Below, piece after piece: positions 10,359 to 30,790 of a stretch of DNA of 64,000 nt. Location: the NCBI RefSeq assembly GCF_008807415.1, contig NZ_CP043626.1:2356001-2420000 (forward strand), written 5' to 3'. The DNA comes from Pseudomonas denitrificans (nom. rej.). GTDB taxonomy: Bacteria > Pseudomonadota > Gammaproteobacteria > Pseudomonadales > Pseudomonadaceae. The position numbers and the translations under genes are program-made. How positions within the stretch are numbered: position 1 is the first letter of the stretch; the number at the start of each line of letters is the position of its first letter. Under the pieces are notes generated by a model, which saw only the letters and a list, made by a program, of their open reading frames with translations, searched no databases and was not told the DNA's origin.

Positions 10359-10411
10359 CAGAAAGGTCCGCGGGATTCCCGCGGACACGGTAGGAGCTGA
10401 TCGGGAAGGAA

Positions 10412-13069: not shown

Positions 13070-13081
13070 GATCGCCTCCAA

Positions 13082-13092: not shown

Positions 13093-13144
13093 GTCGTCGA
13101 AGCCTCGGAGCGGGAGGCTTCGATCTGGCCGGGAATGCCCGGAG

Positions 13145-13978: not shown

Positions 13979-13988
13979 GGAACTGACC

Positions 13989-13997
13989 TCTTGTTGT
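13989..13997 (-). promoter_or_regulatory. CA-like motif before the module A FAH hydrolase
   Basis: The minus strand reads ACAACAAGA next to the GAGG of the ribosome-binding site: a shorter match to the AANAANAA motif seen before neighbouring genes. Confidence 0.35.
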
Positions 13998-14065
13998 GAT
14001 TCGTGACGACCGCCAGGCAGTGCGGCATGGGTCCTAAGCTAATCCGAGGAAAATATGTCGTCAAC

Positions 14066-14095
14066 GATAAAATATATATTTTCAGAATTATCGAT
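14066..14095. promoter_or_regulatory. AT-rich palindromic control region between FAH and GntR genes
   Basis: A perfect 14-base palindrome AAAATATATATTTT (14069-14082) lies inside a second inverted repeat, CGATAA ... TTATCG. It is the most AT-rich spot in the divergent region and a likely operator/promoter for the GntR regulator and module A. Confidence 0.45.
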
Positions 14096-14149
14096 AAAAC
14101 GGCCTTCTGTGTATTATCTGTCCATCAGCAACAACACGCGGTACACCCC

Positions 14150-14854
14150 ATGAACCAAGCCGAACGCTGGTCGCAGCAGCCCGAGGCGCCGGAAAAGCGC
14201 ACCATGGCTTCGCAGCTGGAGTCCAGAGTCCGTGAAGACATCATCAATGGTCGCCTGGCGCCGGGCAGCCGCCTGCGCCTGAAGGAGCTAGCCGAGCATT
14301 ACGACGCCGGTGTCATCCCGCTGCGCGAAGCCTTGTCCCGTCTGGCCGCCAGCGGCTTCGTCAGCTCCGAGGACCAGAAGGGCTTCAGCGTCGGCCGCAT
14401 CTCCGCCGAGGAGATTCGCGACATCACCGCTACCCGTCAGCTGATCGAGTGCCAGGCACTGGCGGAATCCATCCGCAACGGCGATCTGGAATGGGAAAGC
14501 CGGTTGATCGCCACGCACCACCGCCTGGACCGCCTGCCCATCGTCGAAGGTCCGGAACGATTGATGAAGCCGGACTGGGAGCAGGCTCACGAGACGTTCC
14601 ACCAGGTACTGATCGCCAACTGCCGTTCGCCCTGGCTGTTGCGCCTGTCGCACCTGCTGCGCGACCAGACCGCGCGTTATCGCATGCTCTCGGTGCACTA
14701 CAACGACAACGGTGCTCGCGACGTTCCCGGCGAACACCGCGCGCTGCTCGATGCCGCGCTGGCTCGGGACGTCGACAAGGCCTGCGCGCTGTTGGCCGAG
14801 CACTACGAAACCACTACCCGCAGTGTGCTCGCCCATGAAGCCCTGAAGGGGTGA
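14150..14854 (+). CDS. GntR-family (FCD-type) transcriptional regulator
   Basis: A 234-aa regulator. The N-terminal winged helix (about residues 18-85) has LESRVREDIINGRLAPGSRL and GVIPLREALSRLAASGFV, the standard GntR DNA-binding signature. The C-terminal all-helical FCD domain (about 90-225) has the usual spaced acidic and histidine residues (AHETFHQVL, GEHRALLDA) that often bind a metal and organic acid. It diverges from module A, the usual position of a local repressor sensing a pathway intermediate. ATG 14150 was chosen; a later ATG at 14204 is possible. A candidate palindrome lies at 14069. Confidence 0.87.
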   Translation: MNQAERWSQQPEAPEKRTMASQLESRVREDIINGRLAPGSRLRLKELAEHYDAGVIPLREALSRLAASGFVSSEDQKGFSVGRISAEEIRDITATRQLIECQALAESIRNGDLEWESRLIATHHRLDRLPIVEGPERLMKPDWEQAHETFHQVLIANCRSPWLLRLSHLLRDQTARYRMLSVHYNDNGARDVPGEHRALLDAALARDVDKACALLAEHYETTTRSVLAHEALKG

Positions 14855-14869
14855 TCGAGGCGCGGCGGC

Positions 14870-15763
14870 TCAATCCGCCAGGGCTTGCCGCGCGATCCCC
14901 AGGAATGCGCGCACGGCGCCGCCGCCCTCCCCGTTCCGACTGACCAGCAGCAGGTCTGCCGGCTGCTGCAGATCGTCCAGATGGCGATACACCACGCCCG
15001 GAATGCGCACCTGCATCAAGGGCTCCGGCACCAGCGCGACTCCCATCCCGGCGGCGACCAGGGCCAGCACGCTGAGCGTGCTGCTGGTGCGGTGAACTTT
15101 GGGCTCTCGTCCCAACGCCCGACGCAAGCCGCCCAGCATGAATTCATCGGCTCCATGGGCGGCGTAGACGATCAGGGCCTCGGCGCCGAGCATCGACACG
15201 CGCAGCGGATCAGTGCTGGCCAGGGGGTGCGTATCCGGCATGGCAACCAGCAAGGGCCATTCGCCAATGCTCTCGAAACACAGGGCGGAATCGCTGATTT
15301 GCCCGCCGTGGCTGGGCGCATAGCCCACATCCAACTGGCCCGCCTGGATCGCCTCGACCTGGTGGTACGGGGCGAGTTCGCGCAACACCACTTCAGCCTC
15401 GGGATAGGCCGCATTGAACGCCCGCACATCGCGCATCAACCGACCACTGAACACGGCGTTGCCGGCGAAGCCGATGCGCACCGTTCCCATCTCACCGCGG
15501 ATAGCCCGCTGAACCGTGCGCTGGGCATGCTCGGCCTGGGCCAGGGTTCGCTCCGCCTCCCCGAGCAGCAACCGGCCAGCTTCGGTCAGTTCCACTCGGC
15601 GACTGGTACGCAGGAACAGCGGCCCGCCGAGCTCTTCTTCCAGTGCGCGGATCTGCATGCTCAATGCCGACTGCACGATGTGCAGGCGTTGGGCGGCGCG
15701 GCCGAAATGCCCCTCCTCGGCGACGGCCAGGAAATAACGCAGGTGACGAAGATCCATGGGCAT
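14870..15763 (-). CDS. LysR-family regulator, CatR/BenM-like
   Basis: A 297-aa LysR-type regulator. The N-terminal winged helix (about residues 1-62) begins MDLRHLRYFLAVAEEGHFGRA, the form typical of the CatR/CbnR/BenM group that controls aromatic catabolism. The effector domain occupies about 92-295. It diverges from the NTF2-fold/alpha-beta hydrolase pair, so it probably activates that pair. Direct GATCAATC repeats in the intergenic region could be part of its site. ATG 15757 has better Shine-Dalgarno spacing and may be the true start. Confidence 0.87.
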   Translation of the reverse strand: MPMDLRHLRYFLAVAEEGHFGRAAQRLHIVQSALSMQIRALEEELGGPLFLRTSRRVELTEAGRLLLGEAERTLAQAEHAQRTVQRAIRGEMGTVRIGFAGNAVFSGRLMRDVRAFNAAYPEAEVVLRELAPYHQVEAIQAGQLDVGYAPSHGGQISDSALCFESIGEWPLLVAMPDTHPLASTDPLRVSMLGAEALIVYAAHGADEFMLGGLRRALGREPKVHRTSSTLSVLALVAAGMGVALVPEPLMQVRIPGVVYRHLDDLQQPADLLLVSRNGEGGGAVRAFLGIARQALAD

Positions 15764-15779
15764 TCCAATCAGTTTCAGT

Positions 15780-15800
15780 GATCAATCCTTCAGATCAATC
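15780..15800. promoter_or_regulatory. Direct repeat in the LysR/NTF2 divergent promoter
   Basis: GATCAATC occurs at 15780-15787 and again at 15793-15800, 13 bases apart, between the divergent starts. It is a possible LysR or promoter element. Confidence 0.3.
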
Positions 15801-15863
15801 TATTTGAGTTTGACCTTATGTGGGAAGAAGCTGGAACGATTTTCCGCACACCGAGAGAACGCC

Positions 15864-16439
15864 ATGCACAGCAACCTTGAAGACCGTCAGCAAATCACCG
15901 ACCTCATGACCGGCTGGATCCACCGTGACCTCAGCCAATGGGACCGGCTGGCCGGACTCTTCCATCCCGACGGCATCATTGAAGTGACCTGGTTCGAAGG
16001 CCCCTTCACCCAGTTCATCGAAGGCTCCCGCCGCATGGGCGCATCCGACCTGCGCACCAAGCACCTGATCGGCACCCCGGTGGTGGAGTTCAACGGCAAC
16101 CGCGCCATCGTCGAGACCAACGCCGTGATCGTTGCCGAGAATGTGCGCCTGGACCTGGGCTGCAGCGTCCACAATCGCTTCTACGACCTGGCGGAAAAAC
16201 GCGATGGGCAGTGGAAGCTGCTCAAGCGCCAGAGCATCTACGACATGGGCGGCTTCACCTTCCCTTGCGGGCCGAAGGAGATCGATGGCGAGGTCCTGCA
16301 GCGCTATCCGCGCGAGTACGCCCCGCTGGCCTATCTGCTGGAAAAAAGTGGCTTCCCCCTCAGCCGGGTCTTCGCCACACGTGGTAGCGAATTGGAGCAA
16401 GCGATGCGGCAGGCCGCGCAAACCTGGCTCACTGCCTGA
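15864..16439 (+). CDS. NTF2-fold (SnoaL-like) protein
   Basis: A 191-aa protein with an N-terminal NTF2/SnoaL-like domain: LEDRQQITDLMTGWIHRDL, the WDRLAGLFHPDGIIEVTWF segment and a later HNRFYDLAEKRDGQWKLLKR strand pair. This cone-shaped fold is used by small isomerases, dehydratases and the beta subunits of ring-hydroxylating dioxygenases, but there is no alpha subunit here. It heads a two-gene plus-strand unit with the alpha/beta hydrolase and diverges from a LysR regulator, so a role on a ring-fission intermediate is plausible. The specific reaction is unknown. The start at 15864 is set by homology-like N-terminal structure; an upstream extension overlaps the LysR start. Confidence 0.8.
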   Translation: MHSNLEDRQQITDLMTGWIHRDLSQWDRLAGLFHPDGIIEVTWFEGPFTQFIEGSRRMGASDLRTKHLIGTPVVEFNGNRAIVETNAVIVAENVRLDLGCSVHNRFYDLAEKRDGQWKLLKRQSIYDMGGFTFPCGPKEIDGEVLQRYPREYAPLAYLLEKSGFPLSRVFATRGSELEQAMRQAAQTWLTA

Positions 16440-16460
16440 TAGCCGCCTTGCTCGACGCCG

Positions 16461-16478
16461 AAAACAAGAACAACAAGC
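16461..16478 (+). promoter_or_regulatory. CA motif before the alpha/beta hydrolase
   Basis: AAAACAAGAACAACAAG just before CAGGAG and ATG 16493: a long AANAANAA-type run, the only plus-strand example in the cluster. Confidence 0.55.
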
Positions 16479-16492
16479 AGGAGTGCAAACCC

Positions 16493-17371
16493 ATGTACAA
16501 ACACGACTATGTCTTCCGCGGCCTGGGACTTTCGCTGTCCGGTCGCGGGCGTATCCCGGAAGCCCCGGGGCCGGATCGCTACCCGCTGATCATCGCCGTC
16601 CATGGCGGGACCTATTCGTCCCGCTACTTCGACGTACCCGGCTATTCCCTGCTGGACAAGGCCCACGCGCAGCAACTGCCGATCTTCGCCATCGATCGTC
16701 CCGGCTACGGCCTGAGCGCGGACTTCGCCGCCAATGCGCCGAGCGTCACCGATAATGCCGAGATCCTCGACTCGGCCATCTATGACCTCTGGCACAGCTA
16801 CGCGCACAAGGCCTGCGGCGTCGTCCTGATCGGCCACTCGATCGGCGCCGCCATCTGCGTCGCACTGGCAGCGCGGCAGCCCACCTGGCCGCTGCTGGGC
16901 ATCGCCATTTCGGGTGTCGGGCTGGACCCGGTCCCCGAGTCCAAGACGAAGTGGAACTCGGTGCCGGCCGAGCAGACCCTGGTCAGCGTTCCGCCCGAGG
17001 CCATGGACGGGTTCTTCTTCGGCCCGACCGGGACCTACGATCCGGCTGTCATGCCGCAAGCCAGTCACGCGGCAGGTGCTCCGGCGCCGCGCAGCGAACT
17101 GGTCGACATCGGCATGCACTGGCCCAGGCAGGTTGCCCAGCTGGCCGCGCAAGTCCGGGTTCCCGTGCACTACCGCCAGCCCGAGTTCGAGCACCTGTGG
17201 CCGGTCGACGAAGAGATCGTGCAGCGCTTCGCCCAAGCCTTCGTCAATTGCCCGGAGATGGACGCCGCCCTGCTCAAGGACGCGGGCCACTGCATCGACT
17301 TCCACCGTGTGGGCGAGGACTTCCAGCTGCAGCAACTGGCTTTTGCCCGGCATTGCGCGGCGCGCACCTGA
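16493..17371 (+). CDS. Alpha/beta-fold hydrolase
   Basis: A 292-aa alpha/beta hydrolase. The oxyanion-hole region is LIIAVHGGTYSSRYFD (about residues 32-47), the nucleophile elbow is GHSIG with Ser116, and a late catalytic His lies in DAGHCIDFH. Such enzymes in aromatic clusters often cleave C-C bonds of meta-fission products or esters of the starting compound. It follows the NTF2-fold gene on the same strand after 53 bases and ends at a strong terminator. ATG 16493 is preceded by CAGGAG and by a long CA motif, suggesting catabolite repression like the minus-strand genes. The substrate is unknown. Confidence 0.87.
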   Translation: MYKHDYVFRGLGLSLSGRGRIPEAPGPDRYPLIIAVHGGTYSSRYFDVPGYSLLDKAHAQQLPIFAIDRPGYGLSADFAANAPSVTDNAEILDSAIYDLWHSYAHKACGVVLIGHSIGAAICVALAARQPTWPLLGIAISGVGLDPVPESKTKWNSVPAEQTLVSVPPEAMDGFFFGPTGTYDPAVMPQASHAAGAPAPRSELVDIGMHWPRQVAQLAAQVRVPVHYRQPEFEHLWPVDEEIVQRFAQAFVNCPEMDAALLKDAGHCIDFHRVGEDFQLQQLAFARHCAART

Positions 17372-17386
17372 GTCGCCCGAAAACGA

Positions 17387-17419
17387 GGCCCTGGCAGCTT
17401 GCGCTGCCAGGGCCTTTTT
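17387..17419 (+). terminator. Strong rho-independent terminator, probably bidirectional
   Basis: A perfect 12-bp stem GGCCCTGGCAGC / GCTGCCAGGGCC with a TTGC loop, followed by TTTTT. On the minus strand the tail reads TCGTTTTC, so it may also end the module B transcript converging from the other side. Confidence 0.9.
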
Positions 17420-17428: not shown

Positions 17429-18790
17429 TCAGAAATACAGCAGCGCTTCCACCATCGCTGTCAGTTGGGTGCGATCACGGCCATTACCGAACGGCCGGTC
17501 GTGCTCGCGGGCATCGAACCAGTCGTAACGTAGCTCCGGCCGCAGCGACAGATGCTTGCTCACGTCGTAGCGAAAGCCGGTGGTCACTGCATTGAAGTCG
17601 CCTCGAGCCGTGGTGGTGGGAAACAGCGTGAACCCGTCCGGATCGCTGAAGTGCTCGCCGCGCAGGGAGTACGACAGGTCAGGCCGGATCTGGTAGGTCA
17701 CCACCGCATTAGCCCCCCACCAGTGCGCTCCATCAAAGCCCGGGCCGTTGAGGATATCCACGGTGGTCGGTTTGCCATCACCATCCTGACGGCCATAGAC
17801 CAGCTCCGCGCCCATCGACCAGCGTTCATCGAACTTGTGCCAGCCGTTCAGCGAATGCTGCTGCCTGAGCTGGCCATCGGGGGAGATCAGCCGGGACGTC
17901 GGCGCCTGCACGTCCTTGGCGCTTTCATTCTCCTGGTTTCCCACCATGAACTCGTAGTCCACCCAGGTATTCATGTCAGCGGTCCGCCAGCGCAGGGCGC
18001 CAAACAAGGCCTTGTCATCGTTGTTGTCACGCAGGTTGCTCCAGCCCTGGGCGACACCCAGCTCCACGCCGAGCAGCCCTTGAGGGCCGTCGAGCAGCTT
18101 GGTACTGGCCATCACCCCGCTGACCGTCACCAGGTTGCTGACGAAGGCATACGTCCGGCTGGCGAACGGGTTGCGGGCCAGGCGGATGTTCGGCGGAATC
18201 TCGTAGCCGAAGGCCGGGCCGAATATCCCGGCCATGACGGTGAAGCCTCCGCCATAGGGCACGTACGCCGTCGCGGCCAGGTTGGGCATGGAGAGGAAGT
18301 TCTGCCGGTCGCGCCGGGCCTTCTCGGTATCGTCGTCACCCGGCGAGTTGGCGTCCCAGTGCATGTCCCAGCCGAACATGCGGGAGAACTGCGCGTTGCG
18401 CCCGTACACCGCTTCGACGGTAAAACCGAAGTCCGCCGTATCGGGGGCAGGCCCGGGCAAGGGCGTGATGCGCGGGATCAGATTGGCCTTCAACGGCTTG
18501 TCGACGAACAGGTGCAGGCTGCCCAGTTCGAAGCCTTCGTCGGAGAAGCCAGTGATAGGAAGATTACTGAGGCCGTCCTGGCGCTCGTCGTGGGTAGAGC
18601 GGTTGTTGCGGGAGTAGCCGACATCGAGCAGGAACGAGGTGGTGATGCCGTAGTCGCGTTGCAGCGAATCGCCGAACAGGCTGCGGAACAGCGCGCCTTC
18701 GGCGGGCTCGTCGGCCTGATCGGCGTGACAGTCGATAATCGCGAAGGCGGCCAGCACCGCACCCAGCGCTTTCACCCGGATGTTGTTCAT
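17429..18790 (-). CDS. Outer-membrane beta-barrel protein (BBP2-like), module B
   Basis: A 453-aa secreted barrel. The N-terminal signal sequence (about residues 1-22) is followed by alternating polar/aromatic strands and a C-terminal phenylalanine (EALLYF), the BAM recognition end. It is the intact paralogue of the frameshifted gene at 8983-10334; the two match along their full length with no large gaps. Last gene of the module B transcript, it converges on the alpha/beta hydrolase at a shared terminator. The likely role is substrate uptake across the outer membrane, inferred from context. ATG 18790 puts the signal peptide first and follows an AAAACAACAACAAG CA motif. Confidence 0.83.
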   Translation of the reverse strand: MNNIRVKALGAVLAAFAIIDCHADQADEPAEGALFRSLFGDSLQRDYGITTSFLLDVGYSRNNRSTHDERQDGLSNLPITGFSDEGFELGSLHLFVDKPLKANLIPRITPLPGPAPDTADFGFTVEAVYGRNAQFSRMFGWDMHWDANSPGDDDTEKARRDRQNFLSMPNLAATAYVPYGGGFTVMAGIFGPAFGYEIPPNIRLARNPFASRTYAFVSNLVTVSGVMASTKLLDGPQGLLGVELGVAQGWSNLRDNNDDKALFGALRWRTADMNTWVDYEFMVGNQENESAKDVQAPTSRLISPDGQLRQQHSLNGWHKFDERWSMGAELVYGRQDGDGKPTTVDILNGPGFDGAHWWGANAVVTYQIRPDLSYSLRGEHFSDPDGFTLFPTTTARGDFNAVTTGFRYDVSKHLSLRPELRYDWFDAREHDRPFGNGRDRTQLTAMVEALLYF

Positions 18791-18802
18791 GGATAGGGAC
18801 TC

Positions 18803-18815
18803 TTGTTGTTGTTTT
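18803..18815 (-). promoter_or_regulatory. CA motif before the module B barrel gene
   Basis: The minus strand reads GAAAACAACAACAAG about 12 bases before ATG 18790, nearly identical in sequence and position to that before the module A barrel. Confidence 0.55.
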
Positions 18816-18884
18816 CTGTCGTTGGCGTGAGGTCCGGCTTCCCTGCCGGCGCGGGCCTTCACCGACCCGCGAAGTTGCAGGAAC

Positions 18885-19262
18885 TCAGGTGTGGGTGGCG
18901 TGGAAGGCGCACTGCCGCCAGCCGCCCTCCCCGCGTATCCAGACCTGGGTGGCGTAGGCCTTCATCAGCCGCTCTTCGCCGCTTTCGCGCAGGACGATGG
19001 ACTGTTCCAGGCGACCGCTGGCGATGGCGGTATCGCCATGCACGCGCACGCTCATGTCGGCGCGCTCAACACTGAGGAAGTCGATGTGGTGGGCGACCAT
19101 CTCCAGGTACTGCAGCTTGTCGTCCACCTTGCCGGTGGCATGGACGTGCACCAGACCCTCATCGATCAACGCCGAGAGTGCCTGGAGGTCGCGGCGGACC
19201 AGGGCGCGGCAGCGCTCGTCCTCCAAACGGAGGATTTCCCGTTCGATGGCTTCAACCCGCAT
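18885..19262 (-). CDS. NTF2-fold (DUF4440/SnoaL-like) protein
   Basis: A 125-aa small protein of the NTF2-like superfamily: IEREILRLEDERCRALVRRD, the LSALIDEGLVHVHATG strand region and a late MKAYATQVWIRGEGGWRQCAFHATHT end typical of DUF4440/SnoaL-like proteins. It overlaps the end of the upstream FAH gene by 11 bases, so it is translated with it. Such proteins in catabolic operons may act as isomerases or be binding proteins; no catalytic residues can be assigned. It is distinct from the 191-aa NTF2-fold protein at 15864. Confidence 0.8.
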   Translation of the reverse strand: MRVEAIEREILRLEDERCRALVRRDLQALSALIDEGLVHVHATGKVDDKLQYLEMVAHHIDFLSVERADMSVRVHGDTAIASGRLEQSIVLRESGEERLMKAYATQVWIRGEGGWRQCAFHATHT

Positions 19263-20136
19263 GCTCGCCTCCCGGTGCGCGCTCGGCGCGAACGACGTTC
19301 TCGATAGCGCCCAGTTGGTCGATTTCCACCCGTACCCGGTCCCCCTCGCGCAGCCAGCGCGGCGGTTTGAAGCCGCCGCCAATGCCGCCGGGGGTGCCGG
19401 TGAAGATCACGTCGCCCGGCTCTAGGGTCATCACCTTGGACAGGTGCTCGACCTGCTGGTAGCAGTCGAAGATCAGCTCGCGGGTGTTGGAGTCCTGGCG
19501 CTGCTCGCCGTTGACGAAGCAGCGGATGCCCAGTTCGTGGGGGTTGCCCACTTCATCTGGGGTGACCAGCCATGGCCCGAAGGGGGCGTGGCCGTCGAAG
19601 GACTTGCCGAGGACGAACTGCGAGGTACGCAACTGCCAGTCGCGCACGCTTACATCGTTGCCCGCGCAGTAGCCGAAGATCACCTGCGGGGCCTGTTCGC
19701 GGGTGACGTGGCGGCAACGCTTGCCGATCACGAAGACCATCTCCGCCTCGTAGTCCAGCTGCTCCGAGACCTGCGGAAGGTCGATGCTGGCGAAGGGGCC
19801 ATTGGCCGCGGTGTTCATCATGGCGAACCACAGCTGGTCGGCCGGCGTAGCCATGCCCGACTCGGCAACGTGGTCGGCGTAGTTCAGGCCGATGCCGAGG
19901 ATCTTGCCCGGACGCGGCACCGGCGCCAGCAGGGTGATTTCCTCGAGGGCGAAGTCCGCTGGTTGGATCTGCGCCAGGCGACGCAACGGTTCCTGCCAGT
20001 GCTGCCACTCGCCGATCAGCCCGGTCATGTCGCGGGGAGCGGCGGACAGGTGGTCGGCAACGCGGATGACGCCATCGCCGGTCACTATGCCGACGCCCAC
20101 CAGGCCGCCGGGGGTCTTGAAGGTACAGAGTTTCAT
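19252..20136 (-). CDS. Fumarylacetoacetate hydrolase family protein (module B)
   Basis: A 294-aa FAH-fold enzyme with KILGIGLNYADHVAESG (about residue 75), the metal-binding DYEAEMVFVIG and DVIFTGTPGGIGGGFKPP. It shares these blocks with the module A FAH protein but is otherwise clearly divergent, so the two probably act on different intermediates. Hydrolysis of an acylpyruvate or related C-C bond is the most likely reaction. GAGGA precedes ATG 20136. Its end overlaps the NTF2-fold gene and its start follows the VOC dioxygenase by 10 bases, so it is firmly within the operon. Confidence 0.87.
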   Translation of the reverse strand: MKLCTFKTPGGLVGVGIVTGDGVIRVADHLSAAPRDMTGLIGEWQHWQEPLRRLAQIQPADFALEEITLLAPVPRPGKILGIGLNYADHVAESGMATPADQLWFAMMNTAANGPFASIDLPQVSEQLDYEAEMVFVIGKRCRHVTREQAPQVIFGYCAGNDVSVRDWQLRTSQFVLGKSFDGHAPFGPWLVTPDEVGNPHELGIRCFVNGEQRQDSNTRELIFDCYQQVEHLSKVMTLEPGDVIFTGTPGGIGGGFKPPRWLREGDRVRVEIDQLGAIENVVRAERAPGGEHAG

Positions 20137-20146
20137 GCTTGCTTCC

Positions 20147-20740
20147 TCATCCCAGCAGAGTGCGAGTACCGGTACCGGCGGTGCCCAGGCGGCACAGCTC
20201 GGCTTCGTTGGCGCCAGCGAGCCACAGCTCGACCATGGCGTCCGGGTCGAACTCCAGGCCGATGGGATCGTTGGCGAAGGTTTCGCTGTGGAAGAACGCG
20301 GCGGCATCGGCGGCGTTGCTGAAGTTGTCCACCTGCAACTCGATGTCGTTGCCCTCCGGGTCGCGGAAGTACAGCGAAGTGGTCGGGCCGTGGTTGATGC
20401 ACCAGTACGGCCGGATGCCCTCTTCCTTCAAGCGCAGGTAGGTGCGCAGCAGGTCGTCGATGCGCGCGTAGCTGTAGGCGATGTGATGCACGCCGGTGAC
20501 CTCGTCGGACTTCGGCGGCAGGTGCGGCATGTTGAAGAACGCCACGCGATGGTGCTCATCGTCGTAGGTGATGAAGGTGAGGATGTCGTCTTCGAACACC
20601 AGTTCGGCCTGGAACAGCTTGCGGTACCAGTCGACCATCGCCTTGCGGTCGGCGCAGCGGAATACCAGGTGCGCCATCTTCATCGGGACCACACGCTCGC
20701 CTGCGGCGATGGTGGGATTCCGGCTCGGGGAAACACTCAT
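20147..20740 (-). CDS. Small VOC-family (glyoxalase/dioxygenase-type) protein
   Basis: A 197-aa single VOC module pair. Candidate metal ligands are the His in KMAHLVFRC, the His pair in GVHHIAYSY and the Glu in NDIELQVDNF, the H-H-E set of extradiol dioxygenases. The size is below that of two-domain BphC enzymes, as in type I one-domain extradiol dioxygenases. It may cleave the diphenol made by the upstream two-component monooxygenase. It is followed 10 bases later by the FAH gene. ACAACAACAAGAAGGAG covers its ribosome-binding region. The start could also be the internal Met at about residue 20 or 22. Confidence 0.8.
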   Translation of the reverse strand: MSVSPSRNPTIAAGERVVPMKMAHLVFRCADRKAMVDWYRKLFQAELVFEDDILTFITYDDEHHRVAFFNMPHLPPKSDEVTGVHHIAYSYARIDDLLRTYLRLKEEGIRPYWCINHGPTTSLYFRDPEGNDIELQVDNFSNAADAAAFFHSETFANDPIGLEFDPDAMVELWLAGANEAELCRLGTAGTGTRTLLG

Positions 20741-20751
20741 TTCGGTTCTCC

Positions 20752-20764
20752 TTCTTGTTGTTGT
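20752..20764 (-). promoter_or_regulatory. CA motif overlapping the ribosome-binding site of the VOC gene
   Basis: The minus strand reads ACAACAACAAGAAGGAG just before ATG 20740. The AACAACAAGAA run adjoins the AGGAG. Confidence 0.55.
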
Positions 20765-22052
20765 CAGACCAGTACCCGGCGGAAGTCGCCGAGCAGCGTC
20801 GCCAGGTAGGCGAGGAATCGTCCGGCCTCGGCCCCATCCACTGCGCGGTGATCCCAGGACAGCGACAGCGGCAGTTGCAGGCGCGGCTGGAAGGAGTTGC
20901 CATCCCAGCGCGGTTGCAAGTCCGCGCGGCCGACGCCGAGGATCGCCACCTCGGGCGCGTTGATGATCGGGGTGAAGTGCCCGCCACCGATGCCGCCCAG
21001 CGAAGAAATGGAGAAGCAGCCGCCCTGCATCTGCGCCGGCGACAGCTTGCCGGCGCGGGCCAGTTGCGAGAGCTCGGCCATCTCCTCGGCCAGCGCGGCG
21101 ATGCCCTTGCGGTCGGCATCACGGATCACCGGCACCACGAGCCCGTTGGGGGTGTCGGCGGCAAAGCCGATGTGGAAGTAGTGCTTCTGCACAACCTCAT
21201 CCCCCTCCAGGCTCACGTTGAACTGCGGGAAGCGCTGCAATGCCGCCACGCAGGCCTTGATCAGGAAGGCCAGCAGGGTGACCTTGGCCTGCCCTTCGCG
21301 GGCCTCGGCGTTGAGCTGCACGCGCAGCCCTTCGAGATCGGTGACATCGGCCTGGCTGTGGTTGGTGACATGGGGAATGCTCACCCAGTTGCGATGCAGG
21401 TTCGCCGCCGAGATACGCTTGATCCGCGACAGGTTGCGGCGCTCGATGCGGCCGAACTGGGCGAAGTCCACCTGCGGCCAGGGCAGCAGGTCGAGTCCGA
21501 CGCCCAGCTTGCCGCTCGCCGCCGGCTGTTCCCGCTGCGCCTTGACGAAGGCCAGCACGTCCTCGCGCAACACCCGGCCGCTGGGGCCGGAGGCCGGCAC
21601 CTGGTCGAGGTCCACCGCCAGCTCGCGGGCCAGCTTGCGCACCGCGGGGCCGGCCAGCGCCAGTTGCGGCTTGCGCACGTGCTCGGCGCTGAGCGCCGGA
21701 ACGGTGGCGACAGGCACGGGTGACGCGCTGGGCGGAGTCGCCAACGCTGGCGGCTCAGCCGCGACGGGAGCTACCTCGGCAACGGGAGCAACCGGCGTAT
21801 CAGCGCCCTCCCCAGCCGGTTCGATATGGGCGATCACACTGCCCGGGAGACCTTGTCACCCGGCTTGATCAGCACCTCGCGAATGGTGCAGGACAAGGTG
21901 CTGGGCACATCCATCACTGCCTTGTCGGACTCGAGGACGATCAGTGGCTGCTCCACGCTGACCACGTCACCGGCCTTGATCAGCACCTCCACCACCGGCA
22001 GGTCCTTGAAGTCGCCGATATCCGGAACCATCAGTTGTTGCATGGCATTCAC
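20764..22052 (-). pseudogene. Pyruvate/2-oxoacid dehydrogenase E2 acyltransferase; apparent frameshift
   Basis: The two frames join into a 429-aa E2. The single N-terminal lipoyl domain has the lipoylated Lys44 in ESDKAVMD. A Pro/Ala linker follows, then the peripheral subunit-binding domain with VRKLARELAVDLDQV and GPSGRVLREDV. The C-terminal catalytic domain ends with the HRxxDG motif (WDHRAVDG). Reading breaks at the CCC run 21842-21844; one extra G on the coding strand gives VSRGSVIAHIEP and rejoins the frames. It follows E1 by 3 bases. It has one lipoyl domain, as in shorter PDH E2 proteins, so it is probably a dedicated second copy. No E3 gene is nearby, so the housekeeping lipoamide dehydrogenase must be used. 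Confidence 0.83.
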
Positions 22053-22055
22053 TCC

Positions 22056-24716
22056 TCAACGGTTCCAGGGCGCAGCGACGGTGGCGTCGATGGCGTAGCG
22101 CTCGCGGGCCTGGGCATGCTTGTCGCGGTCGATGCCGGCCAGCGCCGCCAGGGCGATGTGCTGGCGGTCCACCTCGAAGAAGCGGCGCAGAGCCGGACGG
22201 GTATCGCTGCGGCCGAAACCATCGGTACCCAGTGCGGTGCAGGGGGCTTGCAGATAGGGGGCGATCAGTTGCGCATAACCGCGCACGTAGTCGCTGGCGG
22301 CCACCACCGGGACGTTGCCGGGCAGACAAGCCTGCAGGTGGCTGCGCACTTCATCTCCCGCGCCGAACAGTTGCTGGCGCTCGACTTCTCGGGCCTCGCG
22401 GGCCAGTTCCGAGAAGCTGGTGACACTCCAGATCTCGCTGGCCACGCCCCAGTCCTCGGCAAGAAGCTCCGCGGCGGCGATGACCTCGCGCAGGATCGCG
22501 CCGGAACCTAGCAGGCGAACGGCGGGAGCACCCTCCCCGCGCGTGTCGAACAGGCGCATACCTTTGATCACATCGGCATGCTGCGCGGCGTCCAGCGGAG
22601 CCTGCACATAGTTCTCGTTGTTCACCGTCAGGTAGTAGAACTCGTCGTGCTGCTCCTCGAGCATGCGCCGGCCGCCGTGATCGATGATCACCGCCGCCTC
22701 GCTGGCGAAGGCCGGGTCGTAGGCGCGGCAATTGGGCACCGTGGCGGCGATCATCTGGCTGGTGCCGTCCTGGTGTTGCAGGCCTTCGCCCGCCAGGGTG
22801 GTGCGCCCAGCAGTGGCGCCGATGAGGAAGCCGCGGGCGCGCTGGTCGGCGGCGGCCCAGATGAGATCGCCGACGCGCTGGAAGCCGAACATCGAGTAGT
22901 AGATGTAGAACGGCAGCATGGGCACGCCGTTGACGCTGTAGGAGGTGGCCGCCGCGACCCAGGAGGAAATCGCCCCGGCCTCAGTGATGCCTTCCTCCAG
23001 CAACTGGCCGTCGCGTGCCTCCTTGTAGTAGAGCATCGCGCCGGCGTCCTCGGGCTCGTAGAGCTGGCCCGCTGGCGAATAGATACCGATCTGGCGGAAC
23101 AGGTTGGCCATGCCGAAGGTGCGCGCCTCGTCGGCGACGATGGGCACGATGCGCGGGCCGAGCTGTTTGTCCTTGAGCAGGTTGGAGAACAGCCGGACCA
23201 CCGCAGTGGTGGTGGAACTCTCGCGCTCGTCCGGTTGCAGGGCGAACTGCGCGTAGCTTTCCAGCGGCGGCAGTGCCAGTGACTCGGCGCGACCGACGCG
23301 ACGCGGCAGGTAGCCGCCCAGTGCCTCGCGGCGTTCGCGCAGGTAGCGCAGTTCTGGGCTGTCCGGCGCCGGTTTGTAGAAGCGCATTTCTTCCAGGGCT
23401 TCGTCGTCCAGCGGCAGGGCGAAACGGTCGCGGAAGGCCTTGAGCGCTTCGATATCCAGCTTCTTCTGCTGGTGCGAGGTGTTGCGCGACTCGCCGGCCT
23501 GACCCATGCCGAAGCCTTTCTTGGTCTTGGCCAGGATCACCGTCGGCCGGCCATCGTGGGCTTTGGCGGCGGCGAAGGCTGCGTGCAGTTTGCGGAAGTC
23601 GTGACCGCCGCGGCGCAGGCCATCGATTTCCTCCGGGCTCATGTGCGAGACCAGCGCCTGAAGCTCCGGGTCGAGGTCGAAGAAGTGCGCTCGGTTGTAG
23701 TTGCCGTCGTTGGCGCCCAGTGTCTGGTACTGGCCGTCGACGGTATGGGCGAAGCGGCGCAACAGCACGTGGTTGCGGTCACGGGCGAAAAGCGCGTCCC
23801 AGTCCGAGCCCCAGACCACCTTGATGACGTTCCACCCGGCGCCGCTGAACAGCGCTTCGAGTTCCTGGATGATCTGGCCGTTGCCGCGTACCGGGCCGTC
23901 CAGGCGCTGCAGGTTGCAGTTGATCACGAAGGTCAGGTTGTCGAGCTTCTCCCGTGCGGCCAGGGACAGCGCGGCCAGGGACTCCGGCTCATCCATCTCG
24001 CCGTCGCCATACACACCCCAGACGTGACGCTGGGCGGTGTCGGCGATGCCGCGGTGCTCCAGGTAGCGAAGGAAGCGCGCCTGGTAGATCGCGCTGATCG
24101 GGCCGATGCCCATGGAGCCGGTGGGGAACTGCCAGAAGTCCGGCATCAGCCACGGGTGGGGGTAAGAGCACAGGCCGCCGCCGTCCACCTCCTGGCGATA
24201 GCGCTGCAACTGATCTTCGCCCAGGCGGCCTTCGAGGAAGGCACGGGCGTAGACACCTGGCGCGGAGTGAGGCTGGAAGTACACCAGGTCGCCCTTGCCG
24301 GCCTCGCTGTCGGCGCGGAAGAAGTGGTTGAAGCCGACCTCGAAGATCTCGGCGGCCGAGGCATAGCTGGCGATGTGGCCGCCCAGCTCGCCGTACGCCT
24401 TGTTGGCGCGGGCCACCATGGCCAGGGCGTTCCAGCGGATGATCGAGGTGATGCGCTCCTCCATGGCCAGGTCGCCGGGAAAGGCCGCCTGCTGCTCCAG
24501 GGGGATGCTGTTCTGGTACAGCGAATAGGGATGCGCCGAGGGGCGCACGCCCAGATGGCTGGCGTGCTCGGCGAGACGTTGCAGGAGGAAGTCGACGCGC
24601 TCGCCGCCGGCGCTACGCGCCACGGCTTCCAGGGCGTCGAGCCACTCGTGGGTTTCCTGGCGATCGCTGTCCTGTTCGCCACGCTCGCTGGGTAATTCTT
24701 GGATCTTGGCTGTCAT
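22056..24716 (-). CDS. aceE: Pyruvate dehydrogenase E1, homodimeric type
   Basis: An 886-aa homodimeric PDH E1, the usual length of AceE. The thiamine-diphosphate site shows VYGDGEMDEPESLAAL, the GDG...N motif ending at FVINCNLQRLDG. Other family blocks are GHIASYASAAEIFEVGFNHF near the N-terminus and TAGRTTLAGEGLQHQDG in the C-terminal half. It decarboxylates pyruvate and loads acetyl groups on E2, encoded immediately downstream. Its place between aromatic monooxygenase and ring-cleavage genes suggests pyruvate released by the pathway is turned to acetyl-CoA on the spot. A modified 2-oxoacid substrate is possible and not excluded by sequence. Confidence 0.93.
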   Translation of the reverse strand: MTAKIQELPSERGEQDSDRQETHEWLDALEAVARSAGGERVDFLLQRLAEHASHLGVRPSAHPYSLYQNSIPLEQQAAFPGDLAMEERITSIIRWNALAMVARANKAYGELGGHIASYASAAEIFEVGFNHFFRADSEAGKGDLVYFQPHSAPGVYARAFLEGRLGEDQLQRYRQEVDGGGLCSYPHPWLMPDFWQFPTGSMGIGPISAIYQARFLRYLEHRGIADTAQRHVWGVYGDGEMDEPESLAALSLAAREKLDNLTFVINCNLQRLDGPVRGNGQIIQELEALFSGAGWNVIKVVWGSDWDALFARDRNHVLLRRFAHTVDGQYQTLGANDGNYNRAHFFDLDPELQALVSHMSPEEIDGLRRGGHDFRKLHAAFAAAKAHDGRPTVILAKTKKGFGMGQAGESRNTSHQQKKLDIEALKAFRDRFALPLDDEALEEMRFYKPAPDSPELRYLRERREALGGYLPRRVGRAESLALPPLESYAQFALQPDERESSTTTAVVRLFSNLLKDKQLGPRIVPIVADEARTFGMANLFRQIGIYSPAGQLYEPEDAGAMLYYKEARDGQLLEEGITEAGAISSWVAAATSYSVNGVPMLPFYIYYSMFGFQRVGDLIWAAADQRARGFLIGATAGRTTLAGEGLQHQDGTSQMIAATVPNCRAYDPAFASEAAVIIDHGGRRMLEEQHDEFYYLTVNNENYVQAPLDAAQHADVIKGMRLFDTRGEGAPAVRLLGSGAILREVIAAAELLAEDWGVASEIWSVTSFSELAREAREVERQQLFGAGDEVRSHLQACLPGNVPVVAASDYVRGYAQLIAPYLQAPCTALGTDGFGRSDTRPALRRFFEVDRQHIALAALAGIDRDKHAQARERYAIDATVAAPWNR

Positions 24717-24815
24717 GCTCGTTCGCTCGATCAGTGTTCGCGGGCGCGAGTCGCCCTGCGGCGCCCCTGGTCAGGGCGCCGTGGAGTTCGCGCGGTCAAT
24801 CGTTTCGGCTGGGCT

Positions 24816-25322
24816 TCACCAGCCTTCGTGGCAAGCGCTCCATTCGGCGCCCGGCGATCGGGCATGCACCTGGTGGTAGCGACCGCTGTAGAACAACAGC
24901 GGCTTGCGCTGCTCACCGATGCGCAGGTGCTCGACTTCGCCGATGTACAGCTGGTGGTCGCCGGCCGGGTGCACATCCACCGTGCGCGCCACCAGTTGCA
25001 CCAGGCTGCCTTCCAGCAGCGGTGTGCCCAGTTGCTCGCAGAACGGCAGGTCCAGCCCTTCCTCCGGGCGCCCACCGAAATGCGCGCTCAGCGGCCTCTG
25101 GGTCTCGGCGAGGAAGTTGACGCCGTAGCGCACGCCCTCCTTCACCCACTGGTTGAAGCGCGAAGCGTTGCGCACCGAGACCAGGATCAGCGGCGGGTCC
25201 AGAGACACCGACATGAAGGCGTTGGCAGTCATGCCCGCCGGCTCGCCGTCGGCGACGTAGGTCACCACGGTGACGCCGGTGGCGAACTGGCCCATCACCG
25301 AACGCAGGAGTTTGGGGTCCAT
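24816..25322 (-). CDS. Flavin reductase, HsaB/HpaC-like
   Basis: A 168-aa flavin reductase domain protein. It starts MDPKLLRSVMGQFATGVTVV and contains GMTANAFMSVSLDPPLILV, the FMN/FAD-binding core of the HpaC/HsaB family, then GVNFLAETQ. It supplies free reduced flavin to a partner oxygenase. The partner is almost certainly the HsaA-like protein encoded 14 bases upstream in the same operon. GGAGGCGCCGCC precedes ATG 25322. Family assignment is confident; cofactor preference (FMN or FAD) cannot be told. Confidence 0.9.
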   Translation of the reverse strand: MDPKLLRSVMGQFATGVTVVTYVADGEPAGMTANAFMSVSLDPPLILVSVRNASRFNQWVKEGVRYGVNFLAETQRPLSAHFGGRPEEGLDLPFCEQLGTPLLEGSLVQLVARTVDVHPAGDHQLYIGEVEHLRIGEQRKPLLFYSGRYHQVHARSPGAEWSACHEGW

Positions 25323-25336
25323 GGCGGCGCCTCCGG

Positions 25337-26562
25337 TCAGATCAGCGGGGTCACGGTGTTGTCCAGCCCCAGCAGGGCCTTGCCGTATAGCTCCAGGCCG
25401 ATGGCCGGCAGGGCCACGGCGTGCCGCGCGCGGTATTGGAGTCGCGCCACCAGCGCTGCATCGGGCTGGCCTCGGCAAAGCTGCCGGCGCCGTGGGCAGT
25501 CAGCAGGATGTTGATCGCGTCAGTGATGTGGGTGTTGACCAGGCCGACGTCGGCACGGATGCGTGCCCGGGTGGTGGCATCCAGCCTGATACCCTGGCGC
25601 GCGGCGACATCGATCTCGTCGGCGGCACGGAAGGCGCGCAGCTCGGCGCTGTCGATCTTCAGGGCGGCCTCGGCGACCTGGGCCTGGAACAGGACCGAGT
25701 CGGTCTGCTTCTCGAAAGAGGTATAGGAGATCGCACGGCGCGGAGCGTTCTCGATCACATGCTTCAGCGCAGCACGCCCCAAGCCCAGTTGCGGGCCGTT
25801 GAGAATCAGCGCGGCAAAGGGAACGAACAGCGGGCGGTAACAGGCCTCGTCCTTGAACTCGGTAGCGTACTCGCCTTCGATGGCCGCCCCCATGTTCAGC
25901 AGGCGGTGGTCGGGAACGAATACCTCCTCGGCAACGATGCAGTTGCTGCCGGAGGCGCGCATTCCGGTGGTGAACCAGGTGTCCTCGATGCTGAACTGCG
26001 AACGAGGGATCAGCGCCAGGTACTGTGCCACCAGCGCACCATTGGCATCACGCTCCTCGGCGCCTACAGCGGCCCAGTCGGCGTGCAGGCTGCCGGAGGA
26101 GAAATACCACTTGCCGGAGATCACCAGACCACCGTCCACGCGGCGCGTATTCGGAGTTGCGTTGAACACGCCGGATACCCGGGCGTCGGGGTTCGCGCCA
26201 AATACTTCGGCCTGGGCACGCTCGCTGAACAAGCCGGTGAACCAGGCGCAGACATTGGTCAGCGCAGCGACCCAAGCGGTGCCACCGCAGCCCTCGGCGA
26301 GCGCCGCGGAAACCTCCAGGTGCGAACGCAGTGTGCCTTCATGCCCGCCAAAGCGCCGGGGCACCATCAAGCGGAACAGACCGGCATCCTGGATGGCCTG
26401 GATATTCTCTTCGCTGGCCCGGCGGTTCTTTTCCGACTCTGCGGCATTCTTGCGCAGCAGCGGTTGCAGCGCTGCGGCACGCTTGACCAGTTCCTGCAGG
26501 GAGGGTGCCTGCTCGGCCACCGGCAGCACGCTGACCTCGGAGACTTTCATCGTTTCATTCAT
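25337..26562 (-). pseudogene. HsaA-like flavin-dependent monooxygenase (acyl-CoA dehydrogenase fold); apparent frameshift
   Basis: A 408-aa group D flavoprotein monooxygenase after restoring one base. The fold is that of acyl-CoA dehydrogenases, but the pattern (GLFRLMVPRRFGGHEG, GCGGTAWVAAL, GMRASGSNCIVAEEVFVP, SPMQRWWRDSNTA) is that of HsaA/HpaH-type hydroxylases. These use reduced flavin from a separate reductase to hydroxylate a phenol. Reading breaks in the CG-rich run 25423-25433; one more base continues it as HAVALPAIGLELYGKALLGL to a TGA at 25337. Without it the frame ends at 25351 in unrelated residues. ATG 26562 has GAAGG upstream inside AAAAAGAAGG; a GTG at 26583 is also in frame. 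First gene of module B. Confidence 0.82.
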
Positions 26563-26570
26563 GGCGTCGA

Positions 26571-26580
26571 CCTTCTTTTT
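26571..26580 (-). promoter_or_regulatory. CA motif/ribosome-binding site of the HsaA-like gene
   Basis: The minus strand reads AAAAAGAAGG: AANAANAA merging with the GAAGG ribosome-binding site before ATG 26562. Confidence 0.4.
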
Positions 26581-26583
26581 CAC

Positions 26584-26995: not shown

Positions 26996-27013
26996 ACAAT
27001 GACACTTTGTCAC
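26996..27013. promoter_or_regulatory. Candidate TetR operator 2, at the TetR gene start
   Basis: ACAATGACACTTTGTCAC, containing the perfect 5-3-5 repeat TGACA-CTT-TGTCA, 18 bases before GTG 27031. It shares CACAATGAC and the ACTTT centre with operator 1, suggesting one regulator binds both. Confidence 0.6.
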
Positions 27014-27030
27014 TCCAGGAGATCGATCCC

Positions 27031-27801
27031 GTGCCCGACAGCGACCAGACTTCCAGCAGTGGACGAGCCACCACCGACCATCGTCCGAAGATGGCCGAGA
27101 AGAAGCGCCTGCTGATGCGCACCCGCCTGCTCGACGCGGCGATGCGGGTCTTTGCCGAGCCCGGCACCACCCCGCCGGTGATCGACGACGTGATTCGCGA
27201 GGCCAAGGTCTCGCGCGGCACCTTCTACCGTTACTTCGATTCGCTGGAGCAGGTGCTGGTCGCACTCGGCCAGGACCTGAGCAACCAGATGACCACCGAT
27301 ATACTGCCGCTCTACGACATCCTCGAAGAACCCTGGAAGCGGATCTCGGTGGGCTTCAGGGTGTTCCTGGTGCGCGCCCTGCTGGACCGCAAGTGGGCAG
27401 GCTTCGTCACCCGCGTCGACGTCTGGCCGCACCATGCGCTGGTGGCCGAGTACATGGCGCGCGACCTGGAAAGCGGCAGGGCCACCGGCGAGCTCGATTT
27501 CGAACGCATCGACGCTGCCACCGACTTCCTCATGGGCGCGTCGGCCCTGTGTATCCAGGCCATCCTGCAGGGTACCGAAAAGGTCAATGAGTACATGGAC
27601 GCCTGCGTCCATATGGCCATGGCCAGCGTCGGCTACGATGCGGCGACGAGTCGTCGCGGCGTAGCCTTCTCGCTGACCTACCTGCAGGCCTGGGGATCGG
27701 GGGAGCTCGATCTGCCGCGCCCGGTGTGGGCGCTGAATCTCAACTCGAGGGAAGGCCGTGCGTTTCTCGCCTATCGCCGGGAGGAACCAGCGGCAGGCTG
27801 A
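27031..27801 (+). CDS. TetR-family regulator of module B
   Basis: A 256-aa TetR/AcrR regulator. The helix-turn-helix lies at about residues 30-75 with TRLLDAAMRVFAEPG and VIDDVIREAKVSRGTFYRYFDSLEQVLVAL. The ligand domain runs to about 210, and the C-terminus is longer than usual. GTG 27031 is chosen since GGAG sits eight bases upstream; a TTG at 27007 would lie inside the operator. It faces away from the HsaA-like gene, with matching operators near both starts, so it probably represses module B and itself until a pathway compound binds. It ends 12 bases before the convergent LysR stop. Confidence 0.87.
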   Translation: MPDSDQTSSSGRATTDHRPKMAEKKRLLMRTRLLDAAMRVFAEPGTTPPVIDDVIREAKVSRGTFYRYFDSLEQVLVALGQDLSNQMTTDILPLYDILEEPWKRISVGFRVFLVRALLDRKWAGFVTRVDVWPHHALVAEYMARDLESGRATGELDFERIDAATDFLMGASALCIQAILQGTEKVNEYMDACVHMAMASVGYDAATSRRGVAFSLTYLQAWGSGELDLPRPVWALNLNSREGRAFLAYRREEPAAG

Positions 27802-29399: not shown

Positions 29400-30790
29400 T
29401 CATCTGTCACCCCCGCCAAGCGCCTTGTAAAGGGCGATCAGGTTCTGCTCGCGAGACAGTTCGACGGCTACCAGGTCCTGCTGCGCGGTGAACAGGCTGC
29501 GCTGCGCATCCAGTGAGTTGAGATAGCTGTCGACGCCCTGCTCGTATCGGCTGCGAGCCAGGTCGTAGGAGTGCGAGTTGGCCTTCACCAGCAGCTCCTG
29601 GGCTCGCACCCGATCCTGCAAGGTGTCTCGCGCGGCAAGCCCGTCGGCCACTTCGCGGAAGGCCACCTGGATCGCCTTCTGGTAATTGGCCACTTCGATG
29701 GACGCCTGTACCTTGGCCACCTCGAGGTTGGCGCGATTACGGCCTCCATCGAAGATCGGCAGGCTGATCGACGGCACGAAGCTCCAGGCCCCTGCCCGCC
29801 AGCGAACAGCTGGCCCAGTTCGCTACTGGCCGAGCCAGTCGAAGCAGTCAGGCTGATACGCGGAAAGAAGGCCGCACGAGCGGCACCAATGTTGGCGTTG
29901 GCGGCCTTGAGCGCGTGCTCGGCGGCGAGAATGTCCGGCCGCCGAGTCAGCACTTCCGAGGGCAGGCCCGTCGGCAAGGCCGCGTCCAGGGTTGGCGGCG
30001 CGGTCTGTCGCAGCCTCTGCTGCTCCAGTGGCGCGCCCACCAGCAGCACCAGGGCATTGCCATCCAGCTCCACCAGGCGCCGATACTGCGCCTGGCTGGC
30101 CTCAGCAGCCCACACCGTGCTTTCTGCCTGGCTCAGATCCAGCTCGGTTGCCACTTCCGCCTCATAGCTGCTGCGAATAGTGGCGTAGCTCTGCCGCTGG
30201 CTTCGCAGGGTCTGCTGGGCAATGGCCAGCGACTGCAGGTCCGCCTGTAGCTGGTAGTACGCCGTGGCCACTTCCGACACTAGTGCGATACGGGCGCTGC
30301 GTTGCGCCTCGACCGTCTGCAGGTAGGTCTCCAACGCCTGCTCGTTCAGGCTGCGCACCCGGCCGAAGAAATCCAGCTCATAGGAGGAAAAGCCTACCCC
30401 GGCGTCATAGCGGTGGGTGGTTGCCGTGCGACCGTCGCCGGACAGGTCCGCCGGTGTACGCTGGCCGCTGCCGGAGACGCCGGCGTCAACCGAAGGCAAC
30501 CTGTCCGCGCGGCTGATCTGGTACTGCGCCCTTGCCTTCTCGATGTTCAGCACTGCCACGCGCAGATCACGGTTGTTCCGCAATGCCTCTTCGATCAGGC
30601 CCTGCAAGGGCCGGTCGGCAAAGTACTCGCGCCAGGGCAGAGGGCCCTGCGTCTCACTGAAGTGGGCAGTGCTCCAGTCCCGCGCCACCGGGCTCGACGG
30701 TCGCTCATAGTGTGGCGCCAGCGAACAGCCTGCCAGCGAACCCATGGCCAGGGCGGCCCCTAATGCCGCCCGCAGTCCAGTGTGTCTCAT
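29400..30790 (-). pseudogene. RND outer-membrane channel, OprM/TtgC-like; apparent frameshift
   Basis: A 463-aa outer-membrane efflux protein after restoring one base. It has a lipoprotein signal (LAGCSLAPHYERP) at about residues 18-30 and the two outer-membrane efflux repeats, including the inter-repeat LTRRPDILAAEHALKAANANIGAARAAF-type region typical of OprM. Reading breaks at the CCCC run 29789-29792: one extra G on the coding strand turns GGQGP... into GGQGAWSFVPSISLPIFDGG and rejoins the frame ending at 29400. It is third in the pump operon, overlapping the RND gene stop (ATGA). It forms the exit duct of the tripartite pump. Confidence 0.84.

Follow-up and report, generated by a model that had tools for sequence, protein, structure and literature searches.

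Why an operon for aromatic catabolism should carry its own 2-oxoacid dehydrogenase is the question raised by a 64,000-nucleotide stretch of Pseudomonas denitrificans (nom. rej.) DNA (C1:2356001-2420000 of a genome assembled as a single contig of 6.88 Mb), called the window below. An original prediction, made from the letters of the window, took the two dehydrogenase components for E1 and E2 of a pyruvate dehydrogenase (PDH), serving either as a private complex for abundant pyruvate or on another 2-oxoacid of the route. The E1 proved to be of the MdeB type, and the locus is best read as a catabolic operon for a C-methylated phenol whose degradation would yield 2-oxobutyrate, turned to propionyl-CoA by E1/E2, a reading to which we give a probability of about 0.58. 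The open reading frame (ORF) list together with Pfam and NCBIfam matches recovers, on the minus strand at 26583-17429, the eight genes that the prediction had named there:

25351-26583, minus strand: HsaA/XiaF-like flavin-dependent oxygenase, 410 amino acids as read (Acyl-CoA_dh_2, 5.5e-20), with the C-terminal frame broken and the tail in another frame
24816-25322, minus strand: flavin reductase, partner of the oxygenase, 168 amino acids (Flavin_Reduct, 1.1e-36), start set from the sequence
22056-24716, minus strand: MdeB-type homodimeric 2-oxoacid dehydrogenase E1, predicted 2-oxobutyrate dehydrogenase, 886 amino acids (TIGR03186, tree and active-site columns)
21834-22043, minus strand: lipoyl-domain part of E2 (Biotin_lipoyl, 6e-16); the frame ends there in the assembly
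20764-21837, minus strand: E3-binding and acyltransferase domains of E2 (2-oxoacid_dh, 3.9e-78; E3_binding, 8.5e-15)
20147-20740, minus strand: VOC enzyme of a single domain and 197 amino acids (Glyoxalase/dioxygenase, 5.9e-15), a predicted extradiol dioxygenase for ring cleavage
19252-20136, minus strand: FAH-family hydrolase of acylpyruvate-hydrolase type (FAA_hydrolase, 7.2e-71)
18885-19262, minus strand: DUF4440/NTF2-fold protein, 125 amino acids (DUF4440, 5.7e-17)
17429-18862, minus strand: BBP2 outer-membrane beta-barrel, probable uptake channel (BBP2, 1.3e-42)

Most of these genes are, as had been described, separated by a few bases or overlap: measured from ORF ends, the spacing is 99 bp between reductase and E1, 12 bp between E1 and E2, 23 bp between E2 and VOC and 10 bp between VOC and FAH, followed by an overlap of 11 bp between FAH and NTF2 and a gap of 22 bp before BBP2. 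From this spacing and the conserved gene order we infer cotranscription as a single operon.

The E1 scores 1513.3 bits against TIGR03186 (cut-off 1408.3) and 1393.6 bits against the aceE family TIGR00759 (cut-off 859.9) in NCBIfam; it matches the PDH_E1_M and transketolase domains and is not an indolepyruvate ferredoxin oxidoreductase (IOR) of the EdcC type. The genome holds three homodimeric E1 genes, the operon copy and two at 58% and 56% identity; these two are of AceE type, each followed by a lipoyl-containing E2; two aceF-type E2s adjoin them, and no second MdeB was found in the genome besides the operon copy. The prediction had named beforehand, as a finding that would undo it, that the operon E1/E2 was the only PDH of the genome, and two ordinary aceEF copies were found elsewhere. 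In a maximum-likelihood tree of 34 E1 rows (IQ-TREE), the operon E1s form one clade of 14 rows (support 100/100) nested within an MdeB family of 24 rows (100/99), separate from the clade of the eight AceE rows (100/99). The E1 of the window is closest to the operon E1s of Pseudomonas delhiensis and P. citronellolis. The MdeB family includes an E1 (locus L076) encoded directly downstream of a methionine gamma-lyase (NCBIfam equivalog, 782.6 bits, cut-off 666), which is 69% identical to the operon E1 and carries the same active-site replacements; L076 and another row, L078, sit on long branches.

Those replacements were located in E. coli AceE numbering, taken from the phmmer alignment. Val192, Gly141 and Pro520, present in 8/8 AceE rows, become Gly, Pro and Ala respectively in 24/24 rows of the MdeB family; residue 192, which in AceE touches the aminopyrimidine of the cofactor, is Ala in both rows of a separate E1 lineage (G232/G158). 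Positions 141 and 192 were also read in 18 further E1 loci (14 of 28, L112-L125 of L112-L139, plus four others; five of the 18 overlap the active-site alignment), where they are Pro/Gly in 16 and Gly/Val in two. The operon E1 is full length and keeps His106, His142, Tyr177, His407, Lys410, Glu571, Tyr599 and His640, the catalytic residues of AceE. Membership in the MdeB family is thus solid on sequence grounds; what stands of the "PDH E1" label is the homodimeric-type E1, whereas the pyruvate dehydrogenase part gives way, by NCBIfam, tree and active-site columns alike, to an MdeB-type enzyme. From this membership, 2-oxobutyrate is the probable substrate, which favours the suggestion that the complex acts on a 2-oxoacid other than pyruvate. 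The name of TIGR03186, "alpha-ketoglutarate dehydrogenase", was not followed for the substrate because the characterised member of the family is reported to act on alpha-ketobutyrate. MdeB-type E1s (e.g., L058, L102-L110) bear this same product name, with the gene name mdeB, in the NCBI annotation, where it looks like a slip for the same reason.

The operon and its conservation are solid as well. When the VOC enzyme was searched against the species genomes of GTDB, 46 loci were returned; E1 is present in all 10 in which VOC identity is at least 62% (L012-L021), and the remaining 36 lie at 54% or below. Thirteen loci were compared by tblastn, namely the window, these 10 genomes and two plasmid loci found through E1; their hosts are Pseudomonas, Burkholderia, Paraburkholderia, Caballeronia and Cupriavidus, from two classes, and closer VOC relatives of metagenomic or other origin were kept out of the set. 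E1, VOC, FAH and DUF4440 occur in 13/13 loci in the same order, E1(-E2)-VOC-FAH-NTF2, with DUF4440 cut by a contig end in L018 and E1 lying in two frames in L020. The flavin reductase is present in 11 loci (partial in L020) and the HsaA-like oxygenase in 10 (in two frames in L017), tblastn finding none in L018, L019 and L020; in L018 and L019 its upstream place is taken by a flavin monooxygenase of the PRK06126 type. Two of the 13 operons are plasmid-borne, in Cupriavidus P-10 and in Paraburkholderia D15, a strain isolated from lichen. Within Pseudomonadaceae the operon is accessory, an E1 of at least 90% identity being found in 3/148 genomes (the source genome, G420 and G350); since G420 and G350 share their E1 sequences with L014 and L016, they were not counted as extra loci. 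In the Burkholderiales loci L017 and L058, genes for an iron-containing alcohol dehydrogenase and an Amidohydro_2 protein, of the family of resorcylate-type decarboxylases, lie near the operon.

The remaining enzymes are consistent with ring cleavage followed by C-C bond hydrolysis. His24, His64, His86, His117, Tyr124 and Glu134 of the VOC enzyme are invariant in 47 aligned rows; by BphC numbering, H24, H86 and E134 would be metal ligands and H64, H117 and Y124 catalytic, and a one-domain type I extradiol dioxygenase is predicted. The FAH protein qualifies as acylpyruvate type by its FAA_hydrolase fold and by relatives cleaving 2,4-dioxo acids, among them the L-2,4-diketo-3-deoxyrhamnonate hydrolase 8gsr (2.6e-50); against the NCBIfam 2,4-didehydro-3-deoxy-L-rhamnonate hydrolase it scores 209.2 bits, under the cut-off of 500. 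The "HsaA-like monooxygenase" of the prediction remains HsaA-like only, as its 255.6 bits against the NCBIfam HsaA equivalog, from a query frame broken at the C-terminus, lie under the cut-off of 450; its nearest solved structure is XiaF (5lvu). It belongs with HsaAB, HpaC-type two-component phenol hydroxylases and XiaF to the same family, likewise with a partner reductase, all NCBIfam scores being under the equivalog cut-offs. The 36 VOC loci of lower identity were screened by tblastn with named queries. An FAH match is close to VOC in 21 of them (weak in three cases, at 29-39% identity, and L051 and L052 being one strain), and no match to E1 or IOR was found in stretches several of which are short, which limits this absence; there was one E2-like match, in L055. 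VOC and FAH thus form a wider pair, and the E1 looks as if it had been added in one part of the VOC family. A 416-amino-acid gene stands beside VOC in L066 and L067, the L066 copy of which matches the isopropylmalate/homocitrate synthase family, unexpected in aromatic catabolism.

Put together, the genes suggest the following route. The flavin oxygenase and its reductase would add a hydroxyl to give a catechol-type, trihydroxylated ring. Extradiol fission of a 1,2,4-trihydroxy ring gives a 2,4,6-trioxo acid, which an acylpyruvate hydrolase splits into a 2-oxo acid and a 3-oxo acid. The VOC enzyme, the catalytic residues of which are observed, would form such a trioxo acid with a methyl on C3, and FAH would split its C3-C4 bond into 2-oxobutyrate and a 3-oxo acid. 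With hydrogen on C3 the product would be pyruvate and no special dehydrogenase would be needed; because of the methyl it would be 2-oxobutyrate, and an MdeB-type enzyme then makes sense. The E1, its substrate taken from the family, would with E2 and the housekeeping E3 convert 2-oxobutyrate to propionyl-CoA, which would then be open to the methylcitrate route; a PrpD-family protein encoded in the genome offers possible use of it, and no close methionine gamma-lyase was found there (the best relative is 47% identical). The BBP2 barrel would import the substrate. A C3-methylated intermediate implies a methyl group that sits between two hydroxyls on the ring. Hydroxythymoquinol, which arises from thymol or carvacrol, has this pattern, and so do lichen phenols of the beta-orcinol type. 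Chamberlain and Dagley are said to have found in 1968 that ring fission of hydroxythymoquinol gives acetate, isobutyrate and 2-oxobutyrate, reportedly with no genes; it is on the 2-oxobutyrate product that deduction links this thymol degradation to the operon. Within the literature searched, the products of the thymol route are not known to have been tied to genes.

A 2-oxoacid dehydrogenase encoded in a catabolic operon is a clue to the 2-oxo acid that the pathway forms. Should this be 2-oxobutyrate, one can predict from the operon how the ring of the growth substrate is substituted, and its genes become candidates for a thymol route whose products were reportedly described decades ago. We advance only tentatively, with rather less than even confidence, the larger proposal that this is the first gene set for a ring-fission route ending in 2-oxobutyrate, in which the MdeB of amino-acid catabolism moved from Lrp control into aromatic operons for C-methylated phenols (of the thymol/carvacrol or beta-orcinol type), with a similar pairing involving a different E1 lineage in other Pseudomonadales. 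Automatic names such as "pyruvate" or "alpha-ketoglutarate" dehydrogenase may well hide the role of such enzymes.

The settings of MdeB elsewhere were compared in 13 annotated non-operon loci on plasmids. An Lrp/AsnC gene stands immediately beside mdeB in eight of them, and in L109 it is beside a pair in which a gene for 1-aminocyclopropane-1-carboxylate (ACC) deaminase (551.8 bits, cut-off 392), an enzyme whose product is 2-oxobutyrate, precedes mdeB. In L102, MdeB precedes subunits of propionyl-CoA carboxylase type. VOC and FAH genes lie within 9 kb of MdeB in two loci, L106 and L061, from Martelella and Aminobacter (L061); ilvB is a neighbour in L110, and an FAD monooxygenase or VOC gene is near in L105 and L108. 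With one Lrp query, no match was found in 11/13 operon loci. The exceptions are L021, where an Lrp-type gene is located some 3 kb upstream of E1, on the far side of the TetR gene, and L059, with a weak and partial downstream match. The usual MdeB thus has the appearance of a gene of amino-acid type controlled by an Lrp regulator, a setting from which most operon versions have departed.

Related VOC enzymes are found with 2-oxoacid enzymes in other arrangements too. G191 has the order E1-VOC-flavin monooxygenase-E2-FAH, and G043 the order E1-VOC-monooxygenase up to the contig end. In G232 and G158 a related VOC (48%) has E1-E2 next to it, together with genes for an HsaA-like oxygenase, a flavin reductase and a flavin monooxygenase; the E1 tree places the E1 of these two genomes as a separate lineage (100/100). 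On the VOC tree the E1-linked rows share one side of a weak branch (81/85), which points to related ring-cleavage enzymes joined to different dehydrogenases. On plasmid L071 of Streptomyces NBC_00984, VOC, FAD monooxygenase and IOR genes are consecutive (9992-16001), the IOR being two genes on from VOC and an FAH-type gene lying on the other side of VOC; no steroid genes are named in the 20 kb examined there.

Several observations count against the 2-oxobutyrate route. The aromatic substrate is a chemical deduction in which thymol/carvacrol is the best-known case, as no gene names it, and the E1 substrate is taken from the P. putida MdeB, reported by Inoue in 1997 to act on alpha-ketobutyrate made by methionine gamma-lyase. 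Among the 13 non-operon loci, a neighbouring gene for an enzyme that forms 2-oxobutyrate occurs just once, as does one for the use of propionyl-CoA, most loci are uninformative, and in L107 MdeB adjoins sugar-acid genes, which could mean pyruvate. E2 is present in 11/13 operon loci, missing in L017 and L020; in the window itself it is split over two frames (22043-21834 for the lipoyl part, 21837-20764 for the remainder), and the oxygenase frame breaks near the C-terminus, around 25430. No FAH match was found in 19.5 kb at G232/G158. The VOC tree has all 17 E1-linked rows on one side of a weak branch (81/85), together with four unlinked rows. Additionally, the oxygenase is 69% identical to a protein (P0180) named indole oxygenase, a likeness that the 2-oxobutyrate route leaves unexplained; in a quick tree (40 of 120 relatives, every third, with P0180, the window and nine operon-locus frames including a second, distant L021 oxygenase), P0180 shares one large group with the operon oxygenases of Burkholderiales, a placement to be read without branch supports and as no guide to the oxygenase substrate.

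Three other explanations have to be weighed against it. E1/E2 could act directly on the ring-fission 2-oxo acid, decarboxylating it to an acyl-CoA, as is thought for the IOR-type EdcC, an edcC deletion mutant accumulating a metabolite that is possibly pyridinestrone acid, which arises from the meta-cleavage product in a side reaction (PMC7793797). This precedent keeps direct decarboxylation alive, most of all for G232/G158 with VOC, E1 and E2 and no FAH match in the 19.5 kb, and the consecutive VOC, flavin monooxygenase and IOR genes of the Streptomyces plasmid fit it too; for the operon, however, it is rather unlikely, since it would leave FAH, kept in 13/13 loci, without a task, and since the E1 shares 69% identity with an MdeB encoded next to methionine gamma-lyase, the product of which is a 2-oxo acid of four carbons. 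A private PDH, in which FAH frees pyruvate that the operon E1/E2 burns, would suit an FAH family with relatives that free pyruvate from 2,4-dioxo acids, a full-length E1 with the AceE catalytic residues and the sugar-acid neighbourhood of L107. It was rejected as the best reading, and we regard it as quite improbable: the genome already has two aceEF copies, the operon E1 groups with MdeB outside the AceE clade, and no E1 match turned up in the stretches screened at the 36 distant VOC loci, although FAH is there in 21. The suggestion of a private complex for abundant pyruvate thus finds no favour here.

The MdeB-type complex might also be a general propionyl-CoA feeder for methionine, threonine and ACC catabolism that is in the operon by chance. 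The Lrp-type regulator so often beside MdeB genes (8/13 plasmid loci, with a ninth beside the ACC deaminase-mdeB pair), the Lrp-type gene about 3 kb upstream of E1 in L021 and the fact that the operon MdeB is the only one of the genome agree with such a role. On the other hand, all 13 loci, which span two classes and include plasmids, retain the order E1-VOC-FAH-NTF2, 11 of these loci have no Lrp match and most have a TetR gene upstream, and the closest methionine gamma-lyase relative in the genome reaches just 47% identity, all of which makes chance association very improbable.

Known systems share parts of the 2-oxobutyrate operon proposed here. In the mde operon of P. putida, MdeB follows methionine gamma-lyase, reportedly without an E2, and no E2 match was found in the 1.5 kb after the E1 of L076. 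The operon E1 is in one clade with the methionine gamma-lyase-linked MdeB and has the same active-site replacements; here, in contrast, most loci place E1 after a pair of aromatic oxygenase genes and ahead of ring-cleavage genes, and 11/13 supply it with an E2. The isoflavone ifc cluster of Variovorax V35 and the naringenin fde cluster of Herbaspirillum resemble the operon in having a flavin monooxygenase followed by a glyoxalase-type enzyme of flavonoid A-ring cleavage, IfcB or FdeC, within a plant-phenol pathway, a likeness of role; the excerpted text mentions no E1/E2 there, and the oxygenase is of the group A FAD type, not HsaA-like (PMC11069340). Nine Variovorax VOC loci, not shown to be ifc clusters, have 41-46% identity, with FAH beside VOC in 9/9. 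The estrogen edc cluster likewise joins a VOC-type extradiol dioxygenase and a 2-oxoacid-oxidising enzyme, EdcC, the presumed substrate of which is the ring-fission product (PMC7793797), but EdcC is an IOR, whereas the operon has a homodimeric E1 with E2 and an FAH hydrolase. In the open-licence literature, which misses most subscription papers, no description of such an operon was found, in line with the remark that the combination looked undescribed.

Of the predicted "PDH E2", the E2 itself is present, but not as one open frame, as the lipoyl part and the rest lie in different frames here. The E2 of relatives is one intact frame (425-452 amino acids in nine loci as called, 500 in L059), and their oxygenase is a single frame of 408-456 amino acids in eight loci. 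Other frames of the window also break, in an outer-membrane factor near 29585 (29400-30790) and in a second porin near 9650 (8983-10388). A programmed frameshift or decay in E2 was not favoured; with an intact E2 in relatives and these other broken frames, an indel-prone assembly appears the more likely cause.

Five further features flank the operon:

27007-27801, plus strand: TetR-type regulator, divergent from the operon (best NCBIfam matches TetR-type, all under cut-off)
17385-17416, no strand: 14-pair hairpin just past the last stop of the operon, where the operon and the alpha/beta hydrolase gene converge
16448-17371, plus strand: alpha/beta hydrolase, candidate second C-C hydrolase (Abhydrolase_6)
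15756-16439, plus strand: SnoaL_4 protein adjoining the alpha/beta hydrolase (domain match)
14870-15763, minus strand: LysR-type regulator

A TetR ortholog stands upstream in divergent orientation in L012-L016 and L021, and close by in L058 and L059. The alpha/beta hydrolase, SnoaL_4 and LysR genes are conserved in L012-L014 and L016, the hydrolase also at 48% identity in L058. The terminator scan scored the hairpin on the plus strand only, with just four T after the stem on the minus-strand side, and it is a possible two-way terminator that may end both convergent units. The scan gave three terminator-like sites in a region of 9.9 kb against 5.6 expected by chance, the sole minus-strand one (18450) lying inside the porin gene. 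A second ring-cleavage module occupies 8983-13978 of the minus strand, with FAH, a two-domain VOC, an FAD monooxygenase resembling MhpA and a BBP2 porin split over two frames, then a major facilitator superfamily transporter; the FAH-VOC-MhpA set adjoins the main operon also in L014 and L059, and a similar set is near mdeB in Aminobacter (L061).

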